From contig SVKU01000002.1 in NCBI GenBank assembly GCA_015068245.1, positions 124,001-188,000 on the forward strand: a stretch of DNA of 64,000 nucleotides, written 5' to 3'. Made by a program: the position numbers and the translations under genes. Position 1 is the stretch's first letter. Each line of letters opens with the position of its first letter. The DNA is from Oscillospiraceae bacterium (GTDB lineage Bacteria > Bacillota > Clostridia > Oscillospirales > Oscillospiraceae). A model generated the notes under the pieces. It was not told the origin of the DNA. It saw only the letters and a program-made list of their open reading frames with translations, and ran no database searches. This document shows, piece after piece, positions 26,301 to 28,249 of the stretch.

Positions 26301-27773
26301 ATGTCAAAAATCAAAGGCGTATCTGTTGAACTGCTTGAAAAACAGCCTTTTAAAATGCCCACTCTTGAAGAAATGCTTGCTTCAATGGGTGAGGGCGGTG
26401 GCCCTGGCGGTCCCGGTGGTCCGGGCGGTCCGGGCGGTCCCGGTGGTCCCGGTGGTCCGGGTGGACCCGGTGGCGGACCGGGAGGCCCTCCCGGCATGGG
26501 CAACCAGACAAAAGGTACTCCCACCGTACTCATCAAAAACGGTGAACTGGTGGAAGATGCCATGCAGAATCAGTTTATCTACGGCGGCGAATTCTATGAC
26601 GGCTATGCGTCCGATGTTCGCATCTGCACTTATGACGGCGATGTGGGCGGCATTTTCGCCACCGGCAAAGGCAGCTATGAGATAGACGGCATTACCGTCA
26701 GCAAAACCGGCAAAGGCGCAGGTCTGGGCACCGAGCGTGCAGGTATTGCCTCTTATGACCACGCCAATCTCACTGTCCGCAACGCCAACATCTACTGCAA
26801 CGGCCAGGCTTCGGTCTGTTCCTCCGCAGAGGAATACAGCTGCCTTAGAGTTTACAACTCCACCCTCATCTCCATGGGTGCCCCCTTTGGCGACGATGCT
26901 CCCGGCGGCAGCGTAGGTTCACCCCCTGCTGCTTTGGAGATCACCGGCAACACCCGCACTCACTGCACTCAGTCCAACTCCTACAGTTATTTTTACGACA
27001 GCACTATCATCGGTGACGGCTGGGCTGCCCTGTCCACCGACGGTTCCATGGGCTTCGTCCATCTCGAGGCTGACGGCTGCAAAGTCATTACCACCAAGGG
27101 CGGTTACGGCACCTATGCCGACGGCTGCTGCCATAACTTCTTCCACAACTGCGATTTCGACGTAGCTCACATGGCAGGCATCATGGCCGGTGAATGTGAC
27201 ATCACCTACAAAAACTCCGTATTCAAATGCGGCACTTACTTCAATATGATCCACTGCGTCATGGGCATGAAAGAAGAGGTCGGCGTGCTTAAGGTTCTGG
27301 GCTGCGACGTCCGCTGCCAAAAAGCTGCAATGATCGTCAAGAGTCAGAACGCAGAGATTACTCTTGACCGAACCAATCTGCTCACCGACGAAGGCGTGCT
27401 GGTACATTCCATCGTCAATGATGACCCCAACGCCACCAAAACCGGCGGTGCCAGGGTATACGGTATCCGTGTACATCTGAAAAACGGCAGCTATATGGGC
27501 GATATCGTCCACGAAGATACCGACCGTGATATGCACGTTTTCATCGATGGCAATACCACTCTGCTGGGCGCTCTGAAAAAGAGCTTCCTGCACATAGAAG
27601 AAGGCGGCAAGTGGGTTGCCACTGCCGATTCCGACATCGTTATCGTTGACGAACTTGATCTCGACTCCATCGACGCTGCTCCCCACGTTACAATTTCCGC
27701 TTTCGGCGGCGAAACCGGCGAATTCACTCTGGCTTCCGGCGGCAAGCTGATTGTAAGCTCCGAGCATAAATGA
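26301..27773 (+). CDS. GGP-tract right-handed beta-helix protein 1
   Basis: The 490-aa protein has no signal peptide. Residues 1-29 are a short lead segment, residues 30-67 are a Gly-Gly-Pro tract with nine Pro-Gly-Gly type units, and the rest is a repetitive beta-solenoid. Typical rungs are ASYDHANLTVRNANIYC, FYDSTIIGDGWAALSTDG and GGYGTYADGCCHNFFHNC. It is a close paralogue of the protein at 43063-44520 and more distantly of 51064-53184 and 29515-32178. Codons in the tract alternate among GGC, GGT, GGA, CCC, CCG and CCT, so the amino-acid pattern is maintained at protein level. No catalytic motif is obvious; a pectate-lyase-like fold is possible. It probably acts in the cytoplasm unless exported non-classically. 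Confidence 0.88.
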   Translation: MSKIKGVSVELLEKQPFKMPTLEEMLASMGEGGGPGGPGGPGGPGGPGGPGGPGGPGGGPGGPPGMGNQTKGTPTVLIKNGELVEDAMQNQFIYGGEFYDGYASDVRICTYDGDVGGIFATGKGSYEIDGITVSKTGKGAGLGTERAGIASYDHANLTVRNANIYCNGQASVCSSAEEYSCLRVYNSTLISMGAPFGDDAPGGSVGSPPAALEITGNTRTHCTQSNSYSYFYDSTIIGDGWAALSTDGSMGFVHLEADGCKVITTKGGYGTYADGCCHNFFHNCDFDVAHMAGIMAGECDITYKNSVFKCGTYFNMIHCVMGMKEEVGVLKVLGCDVRCQKAAMIVKSQNAEITLDRTNLLTDEGVLVHSIVNDDPNATKTGGARVYGIRVHLKNGSYMGDIVHEDTDRDMHVFIDGNTTLLGALKKSFLHIEEGGKWVATADSDIVIVDELDLDSIDAAPHVTISAFGGETGEFTLASGGKLIVSSEHK

Positions 27774-28249
27774 TTATTTAAATCGCTGTTCAGATCAAAT
27801 GGTCGCTTTGCGGCACATCAACATTTCCAAAGGAAATAATCACCCGGCGAAGCTGAATTTCGCCACGAAGTGTTTCCACCTTTGCTCAGCAAAGATTTCG
27901 TTGAAAGAGTCCCGGACAAAAGGGAGTTGGTCATAGGGGTATGACCAACTCCCAGCGATATAGATTTGCTTTGCAAATCTGTGATATACGCCGATAGCGT
28001 GTGATATAGGCTTCGCCTGTGATATATTTTCTGCGAAAATATTGATGAAAAGGACGATATCCGAGGATATCGTCCTTTAAAATTCAAATCATCACGAAGT
28101 GATACATCAACATGCCGCAGGCATATATCACATTGCGTCAGCAATATTTCACATTTCCAACGGAAATATTCCACTTTCCCGTTGGGGAAAATATCATTGG
28201 AGGTTGCGAAAATCCTTTTTCGCAACCTCCTTAGTCCGGGACTTTTTCA
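27774..28249. other. Gene-free stretch occupied by a hairpin array
   Basis: No coding region is supported. The stretch from about 27823 consists almost wholly of short palindromes; its core is described at 27908-28243. The left part (27823-27893) adds ATTTCC-AAA-GGAAAT, GGCGAA-N7-TTCGCC and TTTGC-TCA-GCAAA stems. Confidence 0.7.
27908..28243. repeat. 336-bp array of about a dozen mini-hairpins with terminal inverted repeats
   Basis: Ends AGTCCCGGAC (27908-27917) and GTCCGGGACT (28234-28243) are perfect inverted repeats. Between them lie palindromes at 27922-27953, 27962-27980, 27989-27999, 28008-28018, 28026-28040, 28049-28078, 28091-28103, 28112-28124, 28132-28145, 28153-28167, 28175-28190 and 28199-28230. 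Several are separated by a TGATATA-like spacer. The stems differ in sequence, so pairing rather than sequence is repeated. No protein is encoded. It resembles a non-autonomous palindromic element and is not a CRISPR array. Confidence 0.85.

Follow-up and report, generated by a model that had tools for sequence, protein, structure and literature searches.

Architecture of the hairpin array

The stretch of DNA that was analysed (the window, 64,000 nucleotides) holds at positions 27922-28230 a chain of twelve hairpins, consisting of two end hairpins of 14 bp, a central hairpin of 13 bp and nine mini-hairpins of 4-8 bp. The left end hairpin is followed by four mini-hairpins with GTGATAT-type words, the central hairpin, five mini-hairpins with ATATCAC/ATTTCAC-type words and the right end hairpin, and the words that part the hairpins are mostly 7 nt long. 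The features of the locus are as follows.

27831-27903, minus strand: older degenerate Gut-1 array at the same terminator (34.8 bits, below gathering), followed by ATTTCGTT and the terminator
27908-27917: left arm of the host intrinsic terminator, AGTCCCGGAC, complementary to 28234-28243; most other copies have their own locus-specific arms
27922-28230: element proper, a 309-bp gene-less palindromic hairpin array whose boundaries are common to the aligned copies (92% mean column identity)
27922-27953: left end hairpin, GGGAGTTGGTCATA(gggg)TATGACCAACTCCC, two pairs changed on both sides
27953-28030, plus strand: left half of the array, with mini-hairpins and GTGATAT spacers of 7 nt; matches Rfam Gut-1 (RF01706) at 55.3 bits
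28049-28078: central hairpin of 13 bp, AAAGGACGATATC(cgag)GATATCGTCCTTT; several copies have the loop inverted (ctcg)
28120-28199, minus strand: right half of the array, with mini-hairpins and the inverted spacers ATATCAC/ATTTCAC; matches Rfam Gut-1 (RF01706) at 64.7 bits
28199-28230: right end hairpin, GGAGGTTGCGAAAA(tcct)TTTTCGCAACCTCC, two pairs changed on both sides
28234-28247: right arm of the host terminator with its T-tract, GTCCGGGACT

The DNA fold of the array was calculated to have an energy of -96.6 kcal/mol against -38.2 kcal/mol for shuffled sequences (z -14.65, with none of 100 shuffles as low), and the outer stem was observed to be paired when the whole insert was folded. Block-shuffling the window five times gave no array of at least four hairpins. 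A single further chained array was flagged in the window; it is short, occupies 26392-26461 and lies within the Gly-Pro-rich stretch of an ORF. The description of about twelve palindromes standing shoulder to shoulder, given in the initial annotation, is thus borne out. Its statement that the stems differ while pairing is kept also holds, as 98.5% of the pair cells in ten copies are standard and four pairs are altered on both sides. The mismatches found in the stems (7 T.G, 2 C.A and 10 other) are too few to separate RNA from DNA. The ORF at 27818-28225 on the minus strand is the hairpin array itself, and the window copy has no gene for PF05635, the family of the 23S rRNA intervening-sequence protein.

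Dispersal and insertion into terminators

Nine near-full copies, the window copy counted, were found in the window's own genome together with several truncated ones, and the near-full copies are 79-96% identical to that of the window. Three contigs (C1, C4 and C37) end in or beside a copy, as assembly-breaking repeats do. The aligned copies have 27922-28230 in common, with short A/T tails, and most of the matches stop just inside the AGTCCCGGAC arms.

The sequences AGTCCCGGAC (27908-27917) and GTCCGGGACT (28234-28243) are perfect complements and had been taken for perfect terminal inverted repeats. The complementarity is real, but these arms are not the ends of the element, being site-specific and matching a host terminator stem. 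In nine copies with both flanks readable, the flanks are complementary to each other and different from site to site, with A-tracts ahead of and T-tracts behind most copies (in L003, for example, CACAAAAATCCGCTGC precedes and GCAGCGGATTTTTGTG follows the element). Duplexes average -22.6 kcal/mol when formed by a copy's own flanks and -12.4 kcal/mol when the flanks are mismatched (permutation P 5e-5, nine copies), and the flank stem is weak in one of the nine (L002). The complementary flanks of these nine copies, of which L002 is the weak case, lead us to deduce on sequence grounds that an intrinsic terminator carries the element in its loop and that the inverted repeats are the split host stem. 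A canonical element bounded by terminal inverted repeats was rejected because the outer repeats are absent from most copies.

The sites were also compared between related genomes. In genus g72, four arrays of G071 were set beside the orthologous gene ends of sister species, and none of the inspected orthologues has an array. The orthologous terminator at G071:C22 (AGCGCC...GGCGCTTTTTT) is retained in G102 and G103, where it lacks the array that follows it in G071. The gap between lepA and hemW measures 618 and 640 bp in G012 and G061, where it holds an array and a PF05635 gene, 35 bp in G033, and 158 bp in the window genome, where it contains another palindrome; this comparison is informative in four genomes only since the two genes are non-adjacent in most others. 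The place and number of arrays were found to vary even among sister species. We regard the insertion of element copies as established. The search for empty sites that the initial annotation had called for has yielded array-free neighbours of orthologous genes at the four G071 sites, and its suggestion of a non-autonomous mobile element is well supported by dispersed near-identical copies at different sites and by array-free orthologous sites in sister species. The refuting case that it had named, a single copy with no relatives, does not hold, since the element is present in multiple copies and related elements occur in other genera.

Gut-1 as half of a mirror-image repeat

Both halves of the array match the Rfam family Gut-1 (RF01706), on opposite strands, and each exceeds its gathering score of 50 bits. 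In its first description (PMC2864571), Gut-1 came from human gut sequences only and was classed as certainly an RNA. We collected 156 Gut-1 matches from 22 genomes and treated neighbours as pairs if they lay within 250 bp. Thirty-six of these pairs, from nine genomes, are convergent, one is parallel and one is divergent, the last being the junction of the older array with the element in the window. The gap within a pair is 16-20 bp in most pairs outside the window genome and about 89 bp in most pairs inside it, where the copies have a longer centre. Because the matches occur as convergent pairs, what has been described as a stand-alone ncRNA is here one half of a mirror-image repeat, which is the simpler account of the family. 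The earlier proposal of an RNA with many stems corresponds to a known Rfam family, but that family is better accounted for by half of a mirror repeat. Gut-1, a catalogued orphan RNA, would in this way gain an explanation.

The loops of the mini-hairpins are strongly biased. The c(GNA)g type accounts for 56 of 90 distinct triloops of the ATTTCAC strand and the c(GNNA)g type for 37 of 70 tetraloops, compared with 2 of 30 and 1 of 39 in other hairpins of the window, and the complementary loop types are almost missing from this strand. Loops of the d(cGNAg) and d(cGNNAg) types are unusually stable in DNA, so the bias agrees with a fold formed in DNA, or in RNA whose sense is opposite to that of the Rfam model. 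Some copies have CGAG as the central loop and others have CTCG, and at the right end the loop is either TCCC or GGGA. These alternatives are probably loop inversions, as expected for copying via a hairpin.

Association with S23-type genes

Among twelve genomes, 8 of the 28 PF05635 genes have a Gut-1 array no more than 300 bp away, where 0.13 would be expected (P 1.5e-12); this value presumes a uniform background and an intergenic background weakens it, though a tenfold expectation is still well under 8. By genome, the co-occurrence of Gut-1 and PF05635 is 11/19 against 10/82. The usual order at the linked loci is tRNA, terminator, spacer, array and gene. The spacer word varies by locus (GTGAAAT, GTGATGT, ATGAAGC or TCGATAT) while the layout is constant. 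In these gene-bearing relatives the array adjoins a complete terminator and is not in its loop. In the window's genome, GTGATAT arrays were not found linked to any PF05635 gene, and the linked array there uses ATGAAGC (L213). The linked proteins match PF05635 over almost the full domain, and also match the solved homologues 2rld and 2gsc. To our knowledge, no activity has been assigned to PF05635 proteins. The link of the element to the S23 family is well supported by these observations.

A period of seven is seen at most such loci. In the window's family, the best period is 7 at 23 of 33 PF05635 genes, and elsewhere in the phylum it is 7 in 20 of 27 cases upstream and in 20 of 27 downstream, compared with 2/27 and 4/25 in controls. 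At many PF05635 loci the heptamers on one side complement those on the other, and a locus's own pairing tops all others in 11 of 27. A chain-of-hairpins metric upstream of PF05635 was not discriminating (7/33 against 7/27 for Y1 controls), and 6-mer and period tests took its place. Among the PF05635 loci that were checked, two lie in 23S rRNA and two near-identical ones within RNase P RNA. In the latter (L326 and L328), the gene at 1501-1818 with its inverted heptamers is inside an RNase P RNA at 1229-2003 on the minus strand, which is 775 bp long and spans the full 367-position model, and constitutes an IVS-like insertion outside rRNA.

Intervening sequences (IVSs) are known to replace the tetraloop of a 23S rRNA helix by a longer stem-loop, and that of Coxiella burnetii (helix 45) carries S23p with GACAGAT heptamers ahead of the start codon (PMC4990558). 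The window element resembles a 23S IVS with S23p in that the loop of an RNA hairpin is replaced, the fold is a longer stem-loop, the termini are complementary, heptamers are present and the distribution is sporadic. Inverted heptamer repeats are found as GTGATAT and ATATCAC words in the two halves, interrupted by mini-hairpins, and nine copies between complementary arms replace the loop of a hairpin in the predicted transcript. Unlike the 23S IVS, the element occurs in many copies, has mini-hairpins between its heptamers and lies in the terminator of a protein gene; this site is intergenic, and the assembly gave no 23S rRNA match. It also has no S23-type (PF05635) ORF of its own, such genes being linked to arrays in relatives. 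Not every IVS carries an ORF.

Proposed origin and alternatives

We consider that the element is probably a gene-less, mobile palindromic element of the IVS/S23-protein kind which is inserted in terminator loops. It would consist of heptamer words arranged as two halves in inverted orientation, in which consecutive heptamers are parted by a mini-hairpin and which the end hairpins close. As the element folds back on itself, the split arms of the terminator could be brought together again, in the way that an IVS lengthens the tetraloop helix of 23S rRNA, and the interrupted terminators may well keep functioning. The copies would spread in trans, the likeliest helper being a PF05635 (S23/Avd-like four-helix) protein whose genes bear the same or equivalent heptamer arrays. 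We infer that gene-bearing S23 elements gave rise to the window element, that an S23-type protein may mobilise the arrays in trans and that movement would proceed via a folded single strand of DNA or RNA. PF05635 has been described as resembling Avd (PMC10053308), the protein of diversity-generating retroelements; a reverse transcriptase and template/variable repeats were not seen in an unsystematic look, and neither a reverse transcriptase nor a transposase was found tied to the arrays.

A repeat of the REP/BIME kind moved by a RAYT (Y1 HUH transposase) seems unlikely. The element shares with enterobacterial BIMEs its intergenic, inverted and paired hairpin units and its mosaic neighbourhoods, the window genome has two RAYT-like genes, and Y1_Tnp co-occurs with Gut-1 (15/19 against 24/82 genomes, P 1e-4). 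However, the units carry GTGAAAT and no GTAG foot, several RAYT-like genes bear GTAG-type palindromes of their own, and no Gut-1 units were found beside the 20 genes inspected, so that no RAYT gene flanked by the same hairpins was seen. RAYT was accordingly rejected as the helper, since a co-occurrence is seen and a physical link is absent. A MITE of a DDE transposase which happens to favour terminators is also improbable: the element is short, gene-less, dispersed and high in copy number, as a MITE would be, but neither an autonomous element with the same ends nor a target duplication was found, and it would be unusual for a MITE to be so strictly confined to complementary terminator flanks.

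That the copies are genes of a trans-acting structured ncRNA, as proposed for Gut-1 in 2010, is very unlikely. The rating of RF01706 as an RNA and the kept stems would agree with it, whereas three observations argue against it: in many genera the halves are paired on opposite strands at a small and regular distance, the place and number of copies differ between sister species, and the loop bias is on the strand opposite to the Rfam model. A non-mobile structure selected by the host for strengthening terminators is hardly credible, because near-identical sequence at unrelated terminators and its absence from orthologous sites point to copying and not to local selection, although the copies are indeed intergenic and at terminators.

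If the element is of the IVS/S23-protein kind, S23/PF05635 proteins, whose function is described as unknown, become linked to a repeat as their possible substrate and to the hairpin loop as a clear target. Period-7 inverted repeats flanking PF05635 offer a simple signature, and IVS mobility becomes testable in genomes because gene-bearing and gene-less copies are traceable across sister species. We put forward only tentatively, as somewhat less than an even prospect, that heptamer arrays and S23/Avd-like proteins form a widespread and largely unrecognised superfamily which would target or tolerate RNA hairpins, move as a folded single strand and spawn gene-less Gut-1 arrays. Its hairpin targets would be 23S rRNA, RNase P RNA and terminators next to tRNAs and protein genes.

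Other arrays and composite loci

The older degenerate Gut-1 array (window 27780-27907, minus strand) abuts the terminator of the element, and the terminator at this site therefore seems to have been hit twice. The layout in which ATTTCGTT and a terminator follow the degenerate array was also seen in other genera. Truncated copies L059, L062, L070 and L071 are joined at the central or end hairpin to a different repeat (TTTTTTGACAG... / CATTGCGAGGAGCGAAGCGACGTGG). Y1 genes with GTAG-type palindromes at L132, L133, L140 and other RAYT loci represent a separate REP system in the same genomes.

Leaders upstream of PF05635 at L193, L215, L216, L223, L225, L240, L245 and L246 contain a tRNA-CCA, a terminator and TATTCAC heptamers. 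These heptamers form a long inverted repeat, and within its loop the left arm of the terminator recurs in inverted form, together with the CCA. At L228 (G060:C47) and L222 (G012:C3), pieces of the terminator and array are directly repeated on either side of the PF05635 gene.
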